A DNA stretch of 64,000 bases from Chloroflexota bacterium (GTDB lineage: Bacteria > Chloroflexota > UBA11872), in NCBI GenBank assembly GCA_022821645.1, contig JAJEDE010000026.1, positions 1 to 64,000 of the forward strand. Direction: 5' to 3'. Below are positions 3,895 through 12,090 of this stretch, piece after piece. Under the pieces are notes generated by a model. That model was given only the letters and a program-made list of their open reading frames with translations, was not told where the DNA came from and did no database searches. Numbering within the stretch: the stretch's first letter is position 1; each line of letters opens with the position of its first letter. Position numbers and translations under genes: made by a program.

Positions 3895-3930
3895 CGAGCG
3901 GAAGAGGCCGGTTAGAAACCGGCCCCTACG
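3895..3930. repeat. REP-like hairpin at the 3' end of the aro operon
   Basis: An 8-bp perfect stem (GGCCGGTT, loop AGA, AACCGGCC) is followed by CCTACGA. It overlaps the last few bases of aroB and lies directly downstream for leftward transcription, so it may protect the mRNA 3' end or weakly terminate. There is no T-run for a canonical intrinsic terminator. Confidence 0.65.
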
Positions 3931-5020
3931 AAGAGGTGAGGGTGTGGACGGTTTGGGTGACGAGGGTGGGGTCGAGTTCTACGTTGACGGTGGCGTGGCC
4001 GAGGGTGGTGGGGAGGACCCAGCGGATGATGCCGTTTTGGACTTTTTTGTCGCGGAGCATGGCGTCGAGGACGTGGGCGGGTTGGATGCCAGTAAACGTA
4101 GTGGGGAGGCCGATGGCGGCGAGGAGGGTGTTCTGGCGGGTGGCTTCGGCCTCGGTCCAGTGGCCGGTTTGGGCGGCGAGGCGGCCGGCGCCGACCATGC
4201 CGATGGCGACGGCTTCGCCGTGACGATACGCACCGTAGCCGGCGACGGTTTCGATGGCGTGGGCGATGGTGTGGCCGTAGTTGAGGATGGCGCGGATGCC
4301 GCGGTCTTCGGGGTCTTCGTCGACCACTTTGGCTTTCCAGCGGACGCAGCGTTGGACGAGTTGGGCGAGTAGTTCGGGATCGTCGAGCTTGTGGGTTGAG
4401 GCTTCGATGAGGTTGAAGAGGTCGGCATCGAAGATGACGGCGGTTTTGATGACTTCGGCGTAGTCGGCGATGAGCTGGGGGCGGGGGAGGGTGGCGAGGG
4501 CATTGGGATCGATGATGACGCGGTGGGCGGGGTAGAAGGCGCCGACGAGGTTTTTGCCGGCGGGCAGATCAACGGCGACTTTGCCGCCGATGCTGCTGTC
4601 GATCTGGGCGAGCAGGGTGGTGGGGATCTGGACGAAGGGGATGCCGCGGGCGTAGGTGGCGGCGACGAAGCCGACGAGGTCGCCGACACACCCGCCGCCG
4701 AGGGCGATGAGGGGTTCGCGGCGTTCGGCGCGCCGGGCGGCGAGCCAGTTGTAGATGCCGGCGGCGACCTGGAGGGACTTGCTTTCCTCGCCGGGACGGA
4801 CCGCGTGTGTCTCCACGCGTAGACCGGCGGAGGTGAGGGCGTGGGTTACGGGATCTCCCAGGATGCCCATGACGTTGTCGTCCGAGCAGAGGAAGACGCG
4901 GCGGGTTGGGGCTACGTCCTTGACGATCTGGCCGGTGCGGGCGAGGAGGCCGCGGGCGATGGTGACGCCGTCGAGGGACTTTGGGGTACTCCGTGGGTGG
5001 GTGTCCGGGAGACCGCTCAT
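3926..5020 (-). CDS. aroB: 3-dehydroquinate synthase
   Basis: AroB converts DAHP to 3-dehydroquinate, step two of the shikimate pathway. The 364-residue protein has the NAD-binding GGGCVGDLVGF motif near residue 108, the IPTTLLAQIDSSIGGK segment, and metal ligands in AEVIKTAV, NYGHTIAHAIE and HGEAVAIGM. The ATG at 5020 is chosen because GGAGG lies 11 bases upstream; a further-upstream ATG at 5062 would add residues read from a repeat. Even so, the first ~14 residues (MSGLPDTHPRSTPKS) are encoded by the end of a MITE-like element, so the N-terminus looks repeat-derived. It is the last gene of the leftward aro operon, separated from aroK by a repeat-filled gap. Confidence 0.95.
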   Translation of the reverse strand: MSGLPDTHPRSTPKSLDGVTIARGLLARTGQIVKDVAPTRRVFLCSDDNVMGILGDPVTHALTSAGLRVETHAVRPGEESKSLQVAAGIYNWLAARRAERREPLIALGGGCVGDLVGFVAATYARGIPFVQIPTTLLAQIDSSIGGKVAVDLPAGKNLVGAFYPAHRVIIDPNALATLPRPQLIADYAEVIKTAVIFDADLFNLIEASTHKLDDPELLAQLVQRCVRWKAKVVDEDPEDRGIRAILNYGHTIAHAIETVAGYGAYRHGEAVAIGMVGAGRLAAQTGHWTEAEATRQNTLLAAIGLPTTFTGIQPAHVLDAMLRDKKVQNGIIRWVLPTTLGHATVNVELDPTLVTQTVHTLTSS

Positions 5021-5093
5021 CCCAACCCTTTCCTCCAAGAGAGGGAGTAAGAGCGGACGCATCTTCGAGGTCGAGAGGCGTTGTGCAAAGGTC
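4977..5093. mobile_element. 117-bp MITE-like element overlapping the aroB start
   Basis: It aligns along its length with the 117-bp element at 12115-12231 and has the same length. The left end is GACTTTGGGG and the right end GTTGTGCAAAGGTC, which is the inverted repeat of GACCTTTGCACAAC. It contains a central C/T-rich to A/G-rich hairpin half (CTTTCCTCC...GAGAGGGAG). No target duplication is visible at this copy. It covers the aroB ribosome site, start codon and first ~14 codons. Confidence 0.65.
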
Positions 5094-5164
5094 TCAAGAG
5101 AGGGAAAGGACGACGGCGAGGGGGTGGCGTGGGTGGCTCGGGGCTTGGGAGGGATTCCGGGCTT

Positions 5165-5460
5165 TCGACCCTCACCCTAGCCCTCTCCCTGCCAGGGAGA
5201 GGGAATAAGACGGCGGCTCCTTTGAGAGACCTGTGCGTAACCCGGGAGTGGGTGCGCGGAAGACCCTCACCCCGGCCCTCTCCCATGGGGAGAGGGAGCA
5301 AGAGGGGAGGCGTGATTGCAGGCGGTTGCTGGACCTGTGGGTGGGTGGTGGGGGTGGCAGCCACCCTCACCCCAGCCCTCTCCCTCAAGGGAGAGGGAGG
5401 AAGAGGCGGGCCTGGAGCGCAATAGCGTTCGCCCCCACTCTCTCTCGCGGGAGAGGTATT
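5165..5460. repeat. Array of CCCTCTCCC/GGGAGAGGG hairpins between aroK and aroB
   Basis: Three near-perfect hairpins lie at 5181-5203 (10-bp stem), 5276-5296 (9 bp) and 5376-5397 (9 bp), each preceded by CCCTCACCC and followed by A-rich GAATAAGA or GAGCAAGA. A weaker fourth lies near 5430-5453. The sequence before the second (5228 onward, GACCTGTGCGTAAC) is the left arm of the 117-bp MITE family, and the third begins with a decayed left arm at 5332. The gap thus appears to be nested and truncated MITE copies. No gene is seen in it. Confidence 0.75.
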
Positions 5461-5486
5461 GAGGACTGCGGCGGCTTCGAGGGCGT

Positions 5487-6017
5487 TCACGATTCGGCCT
5501 GGAGGGTGGTGGCGATTTCGGTGGCGATGGTGTTGATGGATTTGTGGTTGGCGCTGATGTGGAGGTGGGCTTGCTGGTAGGCGGCGAGGCGTTCGGCGCG
5601 GAGGGCGCGGAGGCGGCCGACAGGGTCGTCGCCGAGCATGGGGCGGGGTTCGTCGGCGAGGGCGGGACCCAAGCGCTCGGCGGCTTGGTCGGGGTCGACG
5701 TCGAGCCAGACGACGAGGCCGCGGCGGAGCAGGGCGGCGCGGGTGAGGGGGTTGACGAAGGCGCCGCCGCCGAGGGCGACGACCTGGCGGGGGCGGGCGG
5801 CGAGTTCGAGGACGGCGGATTGCTCGAAGCCGCGGAAGACGGCTTCGCCCTTGTGGCTGAAGAGCCAGGGGATGGTGCGGCCGGTGCGGCGTTCGACCTC
5901 GGTGTCGGTGTCCTGGACTTTCCAGCCGAGGCGGCGGGCGAGGACGGTGGCGACGCTGGATTTGCCGGCGCCGCTGATGCCGACGAGGAAGACGCGGTCG
6001 ACGTTGGGCGGGGTCAT
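5487..6017 (-). CDS. aroK: Shikimate kinase
   Basis: This 176-residue kinase phosphorylates shikimate at O3 using ATP. The Walker A GISGAGKSS is at residues ~13-21, DTDTEVERRTG follows as the shikimate-binding/Mg site, F-R-G-F-E lies in the substrate pocket, GGGAF is the Walker B-like loop, and RPML sits in the lid region. Length is normal for the family. Its start overlaps the aroC stop by 4 bp (ATGA), so it is coupled to aroC. Downstream, a 467-bp repeat-filled gap separates it from aroB. Confidence 0.95.
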   Translation of the reverse strand: MTPPNVDRVFLVGISGAGKSSVATVLARRLGWKVQDTDTEVERRTGRTIPWLFSHKGEAVFRGFEQSAVLELAARPRQVVALGGGAFVNPLTRAALLRRGLVVWLDVDPDQAAERLGPALADEPRPMLGDDPVGRLRALRAERLAAYQQAHLHISANHKSINTIATEIATTLQAES

Positions 6018-7198
6018 GCGGACTCGGAACCGACGGCGTAGGTCTGGCGGAAGCGTTGGAGGTTGTCGCGGGTTTCGGGGAGGCTGTCGCCGCCGAATTT
6101 GTCGAGCACGGCGTCGGCGAGGACGAGGGCGGTCATGGCTTCGCCGATGACGCCGGCGGCGGGGACGACGCAGACGTCGGAACGCTCGAAGTGGGCGGTG
6201 GTGGGTTGGAGGGTGGCGACATCGACGGTGCGCAGGGGGCGGCGCATGGTGGAGATGGGCTTGAGGGCGCCGCGGACGACGATGGGCTGGCCGTTGGTCA
6301 TGCCGCCCTCGAATCCGCCGGCGCGGTTGGAGAGGCGGGCCCAGCCGCGGTCGGGGTCGATGGCGATTTCGTCGTGGACGTCGTGGCCGCGGGCGGCGGC
6401 GTTGGCGAAGGCGGGGCCGATTTCAGCGCCCTTGACGGCGTTGATGCTGACGATGGCCTGGGTGAGGCGGGCATCCAGCTTGCGGTCCCATTGAACATGG
6501 CTGCCGAGGCCGACGGGGGCGCCCCAGGCGACGACTTCGAAGACGCCGCCGAGGGTGGAGCCGTCGACGCGGGCGCTGTCGATCTCGGCCATCATCTGGT
6601 CGGCGCGCTCGGGGGTGACGGCGCGAACGGGGGAGGCTTCGACGTCGTCCCAGGGCCAGTGTTCGGGGCGGGCGTGGTCGAGGCCGGGTTCGTCGACGAT
6701 CGAACCGATGCGGGCGGTGCGGCTGCGGATGCGGATGCCGAGTTCGGCGAGGAATTTGCGGGCGATGGCGCCGACGGCGACGCGGGCGGTGGTTTCGCGG
6801 GCGCTGGAGCGTTCGAGGATGTTGCGGAGGTCGCCGGTGCCGTACTTGATCATGCCGGCGAGGTCGGCGTGGCCGGGGCGGGGCTTGGTGACGGGGGGGA
6901 TGTCGAGTTGGGGGGCCTCGATGGCCATTTTTTCGACCCAGTTGGCCCAGTCGCGGTTTTCGATGAGGAGGGTGATGGGGCTGCCGAGGGTTTCACCAAG
7001 GCGGATGCCGCTGCGGATGATGGCCTGGTCGCGCTCGATTTTCATGCGGCCGCCGCGGCCGTAGCCGCCCTGGCGGCGGGAGAGGTCGGGGTTGATGTCC
7101 TGGACGCCCAAGGGCACGCCGAGGGGGAGGCCCTCGACGATGACGGTGAGGCCGGGGCCGTGGGATTCGCCGGCGGTGAGGTAGCGGAGGTTGGCCAT
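6014..7198 (-). CDS. aroC: Chorismate synthase
   Basis: AroC makes chorismate from 5-enolpyruvylshikimate 3-phosphate using reduced FMN. The 394-residue protein has the N-terminal GESHGPGLT signature, RRQGGYGRGGRM, the RSSARETTARVA signature and the C-terminal RSDVCVVPAAGVI region. Length is typical. It lies 16 bp downstream of aroE and overlaps aroK by 4 bp. It completes the common trunk to Phe, Tyr, Trp and folate. Confidence 0.97.
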   Translation of the reverse strand: MANLRYLTAGESHGPGLTVIVEGLPLGVPLGVQDINPDLSRRQGGYGRGGRMKIERDQAIIRSGIRLGETLGSPITLLIENRDWANWVEKMAIEAPQLDIPPVTKPRPGHADLAGMIKYGTGDLRNILERSSARETTARVAVGAIARKFLAELGIRIRSRTARIGSIVDEPGLDHARPEHWPWDDVEASPVRAVTPERADQMMAEIDSARVDGSTLGGVFEVVAWGAPVGLGSHVQWDRKLDARLTQAIVSINAVKGAEIGPAFANAAARGHDVHDEIAIDPDRGWARLSNRAGGFEGGMTNGQPIVVRGALKPISTMRRPLRTVDVATLQPTTAHFERSDVCVVPAAGVIGEAMTALVLADAVLDKFGGDSLPETRDNLQRFRQTYAVGSESA

Positions 7199-7214
7199 GG
7201 GGTGTGGGTGGTTC

Positions 7215-8071
7215 CTACGAGTGGTCGGCGTTCAGGGCGGCGCGGGCGGCTGTGAGCATGGTACGCGCCGGGGCGGGGCGGCCGGTCCATTGCTGGAGGC
7301 TGGCGGCGCCCTGCATGACGAGCATTTCGAGGCCGCCGAGGGTGGGGGCGCCGCAGCGTTGGGCGGCGGCGAGGAGGGGTGTGAGGGCGGGGCGGTAGAC
7401 GATGTCGTAGACGAAGAGGTTGGGGTGGAGGCAGCCGGGGGGGACGGGGCTGGCGCCGGGGGCGGGGCCGCCGGACATGCCGACGCTGGTGGTGTTGACG
7501 AGGAGGTGGGCGGCGGCAAGGCGTTGGGGGAGGCGGGTGTCGGTTAGCGCACAGGCGTCGATGGGGATGTCGCTGGGCGGTTGGAGGTCTTGCACGAGTT
7601 GGTGGGCGCGGGCGGGGGTGCGGTTGGCGAGGAGGATGCGGCGGGCGCCGGTGTCGAGGAGGGCGAGGACGGCGGCTCGGGCTGCGCCGCCGGCGCCGAG
7701 GACGACGACGGAGGCGCCGGCGGGGTCGAAGTTGCCGAATTGGCGGAGGGCTTCGCTGAAGCCGTAGGGGTCGGTGTTGTCGCCGAGGAGGCGGGGGCCG
7801 TCGCGGATGACGGTGTTGACGGCGCCGGTGCGTTGGGCGGCGGGGGTGAGGCGGTCCATGGCGCGGAAGGCGGCGAGCTTGTGGGGGATGGTGACGTTGA
7901 GGCCGGCGAGGCGGCCGGCGCGGACGTCTTCGAAGCGATCGGTCTCGGTTCCCGGGGGCGTGGGGAGGGCGGTGTAGGCGGCGTCGAGGCCGAGTTCAGC
8001 GAGGGCGGCCTGGTGCATGACGGGGGAGAGGGTGTGACCGAGGGGCCAGCCGATGACGGCGTAGGCGGCGC

Positions 8072-8075
<4 letters not shown>
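7215..8075 (-). CDS. aroE: Shikimate dehydrogenase (NADP+)
   Basis: AroE reduces 3-dehydroshikimate to shikimate. In 286 residues the N-terminal substrate domain carries the GxPxxHTLSPxMH-like motif (GWPLGHTLSPVMH), the catalytic Lys in NVTIPHK and the Asp in NTDPYGF. The NADP-binding loop is VLGAGGAARA, followed by LANRTPARA. The start overlaps the aroA stop by 4 bp. No aroD or aroQ dehydratase gene is present in this window, so that pathway step must be encoded elsewhere. Confidence 0.96.
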
Positions 8076-10404
<2,329 letters not shown>

Positions 10405-10449
10405 CGGGCGGGCTCCTGCTGGGGACGGTGGGGCGAGTGGTCGGAGAAA

Positions 10450-10476
10450 GAAAAAAGCAGAGGCGGGGGCCTCTGC
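10450..10476 (-). terminator. Intrinsic terminator in the aroF leader (attenuator)
   Basis: On the minus strand an 8-bp perfect stem GCAGAGGC/GCCTCTGC with a CCCC loop is followed directly by six T residues. It lies between a leader peptide ORF and the aroF start codon, so it would stop transcription before the operon unless prevented. That position is the hallmark of transcription attenuation. Confidence 0.85.
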
Positions 10477-10495
10477 TGCCGGCGTCTGCGAGTCG

Positions 10496-10598
10496 TTGGA
10501 CTACATGAGGTCACGACCCGGCTGCGCCGGCCCTGGAAACGCGAAATAGACGCCGCAAGCTGGGGCGTGACCGTGGGTCATGCACACTCGTAGTCCAA
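10496..10598 (-). promoter_or_regulatory. Long-range stem bracketing the leader peptide
   Basis: TTGGACTAC (minus strand, 10598-10590) pairs perfectly with GTAGTCCAA (10504-10496). Three more pairs (GAG with CTC) follow after a two-base bulge. The 3' arm contains the leader-peptide stop codon, so a ribosome finishing the peptide would open this stem. A second possible helix pairs GCCGGCG inside the leader ORF with CGCCGGC just before the terminator. These are alternative RNA folds expected of an attenuator; the dynamics are inferred. Confidence 0.55.
10501..10581 (-). CDS. Putative aromatic leader peptide of the aro operon
   Basis: A 26-codon ORF begins ATG ACC CAC and contains the run V-Y-F-A-F, three aromatic codons (TAT, TTC, TTT) within four positions, ending ...RDLM and TAG. 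It lies about 100 bases before aroF and just upstream of an intrinsic terminator. By analogy to pheL and trpL, ribosome stalling at scarce Tyr-tRNA or Phe-tRNA would alter downstream folding and allow aro expression. The ribosome site is weak. The peptide is too short to recognise by homology, so the case is positional. Confidence 0.6.
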   Translation of the reverse strand: MTHGHAPACGVYFAFPGPAQPGRDLM

Positions 10599-10707
10599 GA
10601 ATTCCGGGGAGAGTGTGCGCGAGGTTGGGGCGGGCGTCAATAGGGCACACTAAGATATTGTTGTGGGGTAGTGTGGCGGGGATTGCGGCTGTTGAAGGCA
10701 AGGGCCG

Positions 10708-12090
10708 GTGGGTAGAGTCGGAGACCCGCCGCGGCCGGCGACCGAAGCCGAATTGGTGCAGTTGTGGCTGGAGGCCGCGACGCGGGTTGGTCCCATGCGC
10801 GATTCGCTGGGGCGCTCGATCGAGGTGGTGTATCCCGGCCGCCGCACGGGGCTGGCGGGACCGGACCTGCAGGACGCGATCGTCAGTATTGACGGGGGTC
10901 CGGCGCGGCGGGTGGACGTGGAGGTGCACCTGCACGAGGCGTCGTGGGAGCGGCACGGGCACGATACCGACGCGCGCTACGCCGGTGAGCTGTTGCACCT
11001 GGTGTGGACGGCGGCGCGGGGCGGTTCCGGGCGTCCGCCGTACATCCTGGCGCCGCGGGCGCTGGCCGGTGGACGAGCGCGAAGAGGGCGGCAAACGAAG
11101 GCGGATGGCTGGCCGTGCTGGAACGCCGCGGGTCGGCCGGCGGACGGAGCCGAGGTGCGAGGGGCGATTCGAGCGGAGGGCGTCCGGCGGCAGGCGGAGC
11201 GGGCGGCGGCGCTGGAGAGTGACATCGAGGCGCTGGGCGCGGACCAGGCGCTGTACCGGGCGGTGATGCGGGCGCTGGGATACAGCGCGAACACGCGGCA
11301 GTTCGAGGCGGTGGCCGAGGCGGCGCCGATCGAGCTGCTGGGCGCACTGGCCGGGCCGTCGCTGGGTGAGCGGCGGGTGCGCGTGGAGGCGGAGTTGCTG
11401 GGGGCGGCGGGGTTGTTGCCGAGCCAGCGAGGGCAACCCGCGGAGCATCCGCATGTGCGGGCGCTCGAGGAAGCCTGGGCATACACGGCGCCGAGGGCGG
11501 CGCCGGCGGTCGGGGACTGGACGCTGGCGGCGGTGCGACCGCATAACCGGCCGGCGCGGCGGCTGGCGGCGGCGGCCAGGCTGTTGAGCACGGCGCCGCT
11601 GGCGCGGCGTTCACTCTCGGAGCGAGTGGCGGGGCTGGTGCTGGCCGCCATCGACCGGGGAAGCGGCCGGGACCTGGTGGGATGGTTCGAGGTGCGGGTT
11701 GGGCCGGAAGACTTCTGGGCGCGGCACCTGGACGTGGGGCGGCGGGCGGCGCGGCCGCTGCCGGCGCTGATCGGGCGCGGGCGGAGCCAGGAACTGCTGG
11801 TCAACGCGGTGCTGCCGTTCACGGCGGCGCTGGGGGGCTGGTCGAAGCGGCCGGAACTGGTTGCGGCGGCCGGGTCGGTGCTGGCCGACCTGGGGGCGGT
11901 GGGTTGGAACCGGCACACGCGCTACATGGCGGACACGCTGCAGCTGGAGCGGCGGGGGCTGGGATCGGCCCTGGCGCAGCAGGGGCTGCTGCGGATTTAC
12001 CGCCGCTGGTGCCGGGCGAAGCAGTGCGGCGAATGCCCGGCGGCGAACGCGGCCGCGGCGATTCCAGCGGGTGCGGGCGCCGGCGAATAG
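10708..12090 (+). CDS. DUF2851 family protein
   Basis: This 460-residue protein has the DUF2851 hallmarks: an early GRRTGLAGPDLQDA region, then RVDVEVHLHEASWERHGHDTD (usually GDVEIH...W..HGH) at ~65-90, and a C-terminal RRWCRAKQCGECPA motif whose two cysteines may bind metal. Biochemical function is unknown for the family, which occurs in Chloroflexota and Bacteroidota as recalled. The GTG at 10708 is the earliest start that avoids the divergent aro promoter region. It stands alone between the divergent aro operon and the heat-shock operon. Confidence 0.85.
   Translation: MGRVGDPPRPATEAELVQLWLEAATRVGPMRDSLGRSIEVVYPGRRTGLAGPDLQDAIVSIDGGPARRVDVEVHLHEASWERHGHDTDARYAGELLHLVWTAARGGSGRPPYILAPRALAGGRARRGRQTKADGWPCWNAAGRPADGAEVRGAIRAEGVRRQAERAAALESDIEALGADQALYRAVMRALGYSANTRQFEAVAEAAPIELLGALAGPSLGERRVRVEAELLGAAGLLPSQRGQPAEHPHVRALEEAWAYTAPRAAPAVGDWTLAAVRPHNRPARRLAAAARLLSTAPLARRSLSERVAGLVLAAIDRGSGRDLVGWFEVRVGPEDFWARHLDVGRRAARPLPALIGRGRSQELLVNAVLPFTAALGGWSKRPELVAAAGSVLADLGAVGWNRHTRYMADTLQLERRGLGSALAQQGLLRIYRRWCRAKQCGECPAANAAAAIPAGAGAGE

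Follow-up and report, generated by a model that had tools for sequence, protein, structure and literature searches.

Here we describe a leader region before the aro operon of a Chloroflexota bacterium that very probably works by ribosome-mediated attenuation, in which a short peptide-coding frame serves to sense Tyr-tRNA and Phe-tRNA. Comparison with related genomes points to a recurring arrangement of parts: a leader ORF with Tyr and Phe codons, a helix (X:X') lying at a fixed distance from the last of these codons, an intrinsic terminator lying at a fixed distance from the helix, and a change of the sensing codons where the same arrangement stands before tyrS and pheS. The fuller explanation, that the leader with X:X' is an attenuator sensing the charging of tRNA-Phe and tRNA-Tyr, we regard as likely; within it, we propose more tentatively that X:X' brings the stalled ribosome to the terminator. 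The features are given below with positions in the window, by which we mean the whole 64,000-nucleotide stretch of DNA that was analysed.

10612 to 10640, minus strand: probable promoter TTGACG-17-CACACT, hexamers read by eye
10496 to 10598, minus strand: long stem, TTGGACTAC (10598-10590) with GTAGTCCAA (10504-10496), a perfect 9-bp match in the window
10501 to 10581, minus strand: leader ORF of 26 codons, MTHGHAPACGVYFAFPGPAQPGRDLM, ending in GVYFAFPGPAQPGRDLM and a stop codon; read from the sequence, aromatic run kept in relatives
10537 to 10548, minus strand: codons TAT TTC GCG TTT; the proposed sensor is the last Phe codon (10539-10537), 8 nt before X
10525 to 10531, minus strand: X, the 5' arm of the helix, GCCGGCG, from helix comparison across relatives
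10478 to 10484, minus strand: X', the 3' arm, CGCCGGC, from helix comparison; directly abuts the terminator
10451 to 10477, minus strand: intrinsic terminator, AGCAGAGGC CCCC GCCTCTGCT plus T tract, from the sequence and aligned relatives
10413 to 10417, minus strand: probable ribosome-binding site of aroF, AGGAG, from the sequence, 8 nt upstream of the ATG
9373 to 10404, minus strand: aroF, DAHP synthase, start at 10404; Pfam DAHP_synth_1 and DAHP_snth_FXD
3926 to 9379, minus strand: aroA (start approximate), aroE, aroC, aroK and aroB, by Pfam

The aro leader and its occurrence in relatives

The whole aro operon and every part of its leader sit on the minus strand, the coordinates having been rechecked, and Pfam assigns all six genes of the complete aroF-A-E-C-K-B unit that the original prediction had read from the sequence. 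The 26-codon frame with its Val-Tyr-Phe-Ala-Phe run lies at 10581-10501 as predicted, and the perfect 8-bp terminator with six T before the aroF start is present as described: its core is GCAGAGGC-CCCC-GCCTCTGC, the six T follow, and a flanking A can join the first T in an optional ninth pair (hairpin 10477-10456). The hairpin GCAGAGG..CCTCTGC has a single copy in the window's genome, which is that of the aroF leader. Upstream of the frame, the promoter spacing is identical and the hexamers nearly so, by eye, in same-genus and same-family relatives; a consensus promoter scan called no promoter. We infer that transcription of aro starts near 10605. A gene for a DUF2851 protein (10708-12090, plus strand) is divergent to aro, and the proposed aro promoter lies between both. 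Rfam gave no family match in the window, T-box RF00230 included, which speaks against a T-box riboswitch; among 20 related loci RF00230 matched only at L093, on the strand opposite to aroF and about 500 nt from the aroF start.

Upstream regions of aroF came from two sources: whole genomes at the level of genus, family, order, class and phylum, with a selection of the phylum matches, and named contigs, the nearest of which bear the title Chloroflexi or Chloroflexota bacterium. Most of the named relatives are metagenome-assembled genomes. A detector for a leader ORF with at least three Tyr or Phe in seven codons, ahead of a terminator, was run on the 188 upstreams of at least 300 nt, out of 191, and found leader ORF and terminator together in 86 of them, against 0 of 376 dinucleotide-shuffled controls. 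Close relatives without the leader ORF or the terminator would speak against the original prediction, and what we found is that 36 of the 41 class loci (window included) carry both, as do 18 of the 69 loci from the rest of the phylum and 32 of the 78 named contigs, some of which repeat genomes already counted. Among the five class misses, L007 has a leader that is intact by eye and two changes in the 3' arm of its terminator, while L131, L134, L135 and L136 are further gene copies in genomes whose other aroF copy has the leader. L003 lies on a contig without upstream sequence, and its genome has the leader on another contig (L266). By sequence comparison, conservation of the leader extends across the class and reaches some distant families. 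The 86 detected leaders reduce to 77 unique ones, from which 39 representatives were used for codon counts and 34 for the helix, distance and folding analyses.

Eight loci (L074, L083, L086, L052 and L071, L093, L112, L120), in Anaerolineae-type and Clostridia-type records, have aroF leaders with very dense aromatic runs (e.g. AFYFYFYFGF) and terminators and are without an abutting X:X'; they are apparently other, separate aroF attenuators.

Thirty-one of the 39 representatives end their aromatic residues with Phe, and the codon is TTT in 30 of these; the sole exception, L123, concerns a Phe downstream of the aromatic run. By comparison, TTT makes up 11 of the 108 Phe codons in eleven window genes. 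The stop codon falls 15 nt past the last aromatic codon in 12 of the 39 and 36 nt past it in 16. The X element GGCAUGA is common to L161, L174 and L192, where it supplies a Met codon, and to L032 and L137-L139, where it supplies the stop codon; its retention across differing reading frames suggests that the RNA is conserved beyond the peptide.

The conserved helix X:X'

The helix analyses rest on 34 representatives picked by hand after the format had been recognised, about one per lineage and from leaders showing the format; the Anaerolineae and Clostridia aroF leaders with aromatic runs, which lack X:X', were excluded from them. In a separate alignment of 20 leaders from two families, 93.6% of cells are paired in X:X' and 94.9% in the terminator, counts that are too low because the alignment misplaces X' in some rows of family f2. 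The mean X:X' helix score of the 34 hand-picked lineages is 26.7, against 15.1 for chimeras in which the X region of one species is joined to the X' region of another, and in 0 of 2000 partner permutations did the exchanged arms pair as well as the real ones. Taken individually, 18 of the 34 leaders lie above the 95% point of the chimeras, the window ranking at 0.158 and the weakest, L188, at 0.467. The sequence of the arms varies by family with the pairing retained (GCCGGCG/CGCCGGC, GCCGGAGGGT/ACCCTCCGGC, CCCGGTGTG/CGCACCGGG), and some helices reach 16 uninterrupted pairs. When the region of the codons and X was paired as a duplex with the region of X' and the terminator arm, p was at most 0.05 against the shuffled control in 50 of the 77 unique leaders and in 30 of the 34 representatives.

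Both ends of the helix keep their distances. In a search broad enough to return other arrangements, 28 of 34 leaders have the start of X 5-10 nt downstream of the last aromatic codon, counted from its first base (0.156 in shuffled sequences), and 33 of 34 have an X' that ends at -2 to +4 nt relative to the terminator (0.219 in shuffled sequences). The window is one of the six exceptions for the position of X, an 8-pair alternative at offset -16 having beaten the 7-pair X:X' by 22 to 21. The original prediction had put GCCGGCG/CGCCGGC forward as a possible antiterminator; the helix itself is borne out by its conservation and by the permutations, and the classical role, mutually exclusive with the terminator, falls away, as X:X' ends where the terminator arm begins. 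Another pairing can be drawn in the window between 10555-10548 and 10487-10480, where the Gly-Val-Tyr codon region CGGCGTCT matches AGACGCCG and overlaps X'; it occurs also in some same-genus relatives and is absent, by eye, from L005, L009 and L011.

The same format before other genes

Searching with the terminator pattern led to loci other than aroF as well. At three of these (L271, L276, L277) Pfam identifies the downstream gene as a tyrosyl-tRNA synthetase, and the leaders end in GCAYIGPARVALPLS, GGYSYRIPV and GDYPYLIPV, each followed by a stop codon, so that the aromatic residue is Tyr; in all three, X begins 8 nt downstream of the last Tyr codon, counted from the codon's first base. A Tyr codon, X:X' and a terminator stand together in seven of 35 regions upstream of presumed tyrS, tyrS identity having been checked by Pfam for three genes only and several of the genes lacking the motif used to place their starts. 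Tyr leaders in the helix-terminator format were noted at L285, L286, L290 and L374-L377. Three more of the 35, from a sister genus (L298, L307, L382), have a Tyr leader (..AYRRPAV..) and X:X' and no T-tailed terminator that we recognised; from their sequences we propose that they may be a decayed or differently working version. Most of the 35 presumed tyrS upstreams showed no leader, and the match at L295 looks like chance.

Before pheS, four of six loci in family f4 (L343, L345, L346, L347) have a terminator of the same kind and a leader whose single Phe codon is TTT; of the other two loci, L341 begins at a contig end and L342 was not counted. The TTT stands 9 nt before X, by eye. The frame that holds it is open in all four, with a purine-rich box before its ATG, again by eye. 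These leaders also hold one or two upstream Trp codons, some carry a Tyr codon at some distance from X, and three of the four have an overlapping second frame that includes a Tyr codon, so that the sensing of Phe at these leaders is likely rather than proven.

Two single loci extend the series. A gene for a fusion of a methyltransferase and a type I chorismate mutase (L254:1563-2687, plus strand) follows a Phe/Tyr leader whose helix and terminator are similar, and at L370 (G030:C34) a leader reading ..WYRYAYFRRPV and then a stop codon stands before another DAHP synthase gene, one of several in its genome. No Trp leader was found at 30 Anth_synt_I_N (trpE) loci (L193-L222), where the one weak match, L212, is on the opposite strand; no Leu/Ile/Val leader at 26 HMGL-like (leuA-type) loci of families f1 and f2, where the gene may be operon-internal; and 30 pheA-type loci gave neither a Phe leader nor a Tyr/Phe leader with the helix. 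On these comparisons the sensing codons appear to follow the downstream gene, with Tyr and Phe at aroF, Tyr at tyrS and Phe at pheS.

Mechanism, alternatives and known systems

The leader has the parts of an attenuator of the broad kind: a short ORF with regulatory codons, a terminator between that ORF and the gene, and codons matched to the pathway. In its short ORF with regulatory codons, its intrinsic terminator and the biosynthetic operon that follows, it resembles pheL/pheA and trpL/trp of E. coli. That the attenuation is mediated by the ribosome is argued by the gene-matched choice of codons, the intrinsic terminator and a stop codon that lies within or past X. The sensing of Tyr-tRNA and/or Phe-tRNA foreseen in the original prediction is supported, at the level of sequence, by the conserved leader and by the change of codon at tyrS and pheS.

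We propose that the leader would work as follows. When Phe and Tyr are plentiful, the ribosome would pass the Tyr and Phe codons, enter X, open X:X' and end at the stop codon, at least 22 nt from the terminator, which would then fold and stop transcription of aro. When Phe or Tyr is short, the ribosome would come to a halt at the aromatic codons, and the X:X' helix immediately in front of it would stay closed. In the 34 leaders 53-83 nt lie between the last aromatic codon and the terminator. X:X' would loop out this stretch and shorten the path to about 8 nt; the halted ribosome, together with the abutting helix, would then crowd the base of the terminator hairpin, and RNA polymerase would read into aroF-A-E-C-K-B. 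If the last aromatic codon occupies the A site, the mRNA entry of the ribosome would coincide with a stem starting 8 nt downstream, as judged from the ribosomal helicase and from frameshift spacers; a ribosome on that codon would leave X:X' intact, and one further translocation would begin to open it. It counts against this scheme that in the window X and the stop codon are 21 nt apart, and a ribosome at the stop therefore does not cover X. The need for stalling and the direction of control are what we infer, the latter from the part that the genes play in biosynthesis.

That X:X' together with the stalled ribosome keeps the terminator from acting is a step to which we would give a little less than an even chance, and the distances between stop codon and terminator are what lowers it: they are at least 22 nt in 34 of 34 leaders and 22-27 nt in 14 of these, among them the window, at 23 nt. 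In E. coli, according to the accessible part of PMC4824070, a terminator several bases past a gene is almost fully repressed by ribosomes, and full termination returns with the stop codon more than 27 nt away, so that in those 14 leaders the normal stop lies where an E. coli ribosome still weakens termination. The same distances make us more tentative still about the general formulation, which is that of a modular Chloroflexota format in which a non-overlapping hairpin may dock a codon-stalled ribosome about 8 nt from the terminator, the proximity of the ribosome replacing a competing RNA structure, and in which the sensing codon (Phe, Tyr or both) would be exchanged for aroF, tyrS, pheS and chorismate mutase.

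The nearest rival to docking is a steric effect of the abutting helix alone. X:X' would by itself keep the terminator stem from closing at its lowest pairs within the RNA exit channel, and the ribosome would only decide whether X:X' survives. The small gap between X' and the terminator in 33 of 34 leaders fits this, as does the prediction that X:X' forms while the ribosome is stalled on the last codon (mean pairing 0.98). The constant distance from codon to X makes sense under it only as a way for the ribosome's next step to open the helix, and we found no precedent for it in the open-licence literature; we consider it unlikely, though a serious competitor.

Somewhat less probable again is a classical attenuator. 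In textbook attenuators the antiterminator takes up the 5' arm of the terminator, and here the later aromatic codons and X would pair with X' and the terminator 5' arm, forming a mutually exclusive antiterminator when the ribosome stalls on the first aromatic codon. We folded the RNA that lies between the edge of the stalled ribosome and the last base of the terminator 5' arm, at the stage when the 3' arm is still to be transcribed. For a ribosome placed on the first aromatic codon, the arm was paired above 0.5 in 13 of 34 leaders (0.55 in the window), through the RNA of the later codons, and the corresponding extensions are visible in duplex predictions. With the ribosome on the last aromatic codon, however, mean arm pairing was 0.11, and it was above 0.5 in only one of the 34 and at or below 0.5 in the other 33, where the arm is left mostly unpaired; no antiterminator mutually exclusive with the terminator 5' arm was seen in these 33 leaders at the last-codon stall. 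The leaders of E. coli gave 0.71 (trpL), 0.83 (pheL) and 0.64 (thrL) with the ribosome on the last regulatory codon and 0.00-0.09 at the stop, the hisL control giving only 0.15-0.25 (0.25 at the last codon, 0.11 at the stop), which shows the measure to be imperfect. Unlike pheL and trpL, in which the arm is paired before its partner exists, the Chloroflexota leaders thus have an X:X' that ends at the arm and an arm that is mostly unpaired. Folding at equilibrium did not discriminate, the terminator being near 1 in both the stalled and the stop state, and likewise in the four leaders from E. coli. A match between the codon run and the terminator arm, regular by eye and in duplexes, was also considered by itself and was rejected: the codon region pairs with the arm not clearly better than do swapped partners (p 0.07), and the native codons have no advantage in pairing over synonymous ones (mean z -0.07).

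The original prediction had further proposed the long stem bracketing the ORF, with the leader stop codon in its 3' arm. Both the stem, as a perfect 9-bp match, and the position of the stop codon hold in the window, but the stem is not conserved: over the 20 leaders of the two-family alignment 59.8% of its cells are paired, the true arms match each other no better than exchanged arms do (p 0.26 for the genus and 0.70 for the family), and it is missing in close relatives that retain the other parts, so that as the switch it is largely refuted and highly improbable. A chance ORF and terminator that merely lower basal expression, with no regulation, are just as improbable, given the absence of leader and terminator from all 376 shuffles, the conserved codons, the fixed geometry and the gene-matched codons at tyrS and pheS.

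In the pyrBI leader of E. coli, a ribosome near the terminator prevents its folding, and the leader ORF reaches or passes the terminator. The Chloroflexota leader is alike in that a nearby ribosome is proposed to block the terminator, and it differs in that the ribosome would be brought near by a hairpin after a codon-specific stall; an ORF running up to or past the terminator was found in none of the 34 leaders, as the stop codon always lies upstream by the distance given above. The pyrBI attenuator is named in the accessible text of PMC4824070.

Attenuation at aroF by a leader peptide is already described from Corynebacterium and has been predicted for Acholeplasma. In Corynebacterium glutamicum, by the portions of PMC4046766 and PMC11802643 that are accessible, aroF is attenuated through the aroR leader peptide with its Phe-Tyr-Phe, and PMC11802643, on Neshat et al. 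2014, has stalling of the ribosome raise transcription under Phe limitation; a lack of response to Tyr is reported. The likeness to aroR, an actinobacterial leader, is that of an aromatic leader peptide before a DAHP synthase gene, by description and not by RNA structure. In Acholeplasma, the motif uORFC-13-1 is a predicted uORF with at least one Phe codon directly upstream of an apparent terminator at aroF, and the excerpted text of PMC8632094 describes it only in Acholeplasma and in unassigned environmental sequences; a uORF with Phe codons and a terminator at aroF is again what is shared, as compared by description and not by consensus structure. A survey of Actinobacteria had, in its accessible part, no conserved RNA structures at Phe or Tyr operons (PMC1262725). 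Another, which included five Chloroflexi genomes, has T-boxes there and calls the amino acid attenuator motifs probably gamma-proteobacterial in origin; as far as its accessible text goes, it relied only on Rfam motifs for histidine, leucine, threonine and tryptophan (PMC3766115). We found no description of such a leader from Chloroflexota in Rfam or in the open-licence literature, outside which most subscription journals lie and which includes the accessible parts of PMC4833913 and PMC9413887.

What is already known, then, is attenuation of aroF by a leader peptide; what is new is its occurrence in Chloroflexota, the non-overlapping helix at fixed distances and the exchange of the sensor. If our explanation is true, a specific control by amino acids would become known for a large phylum that is mostly uncultured. 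The leader would also be an attenuator without a competing antiterminator, and so a natural case of how close a ribosome must come to block the folding of a terminator, a question that can be tested directly by small insertions, since the two distances are fixed, at about 8 nt and about 0 nt.
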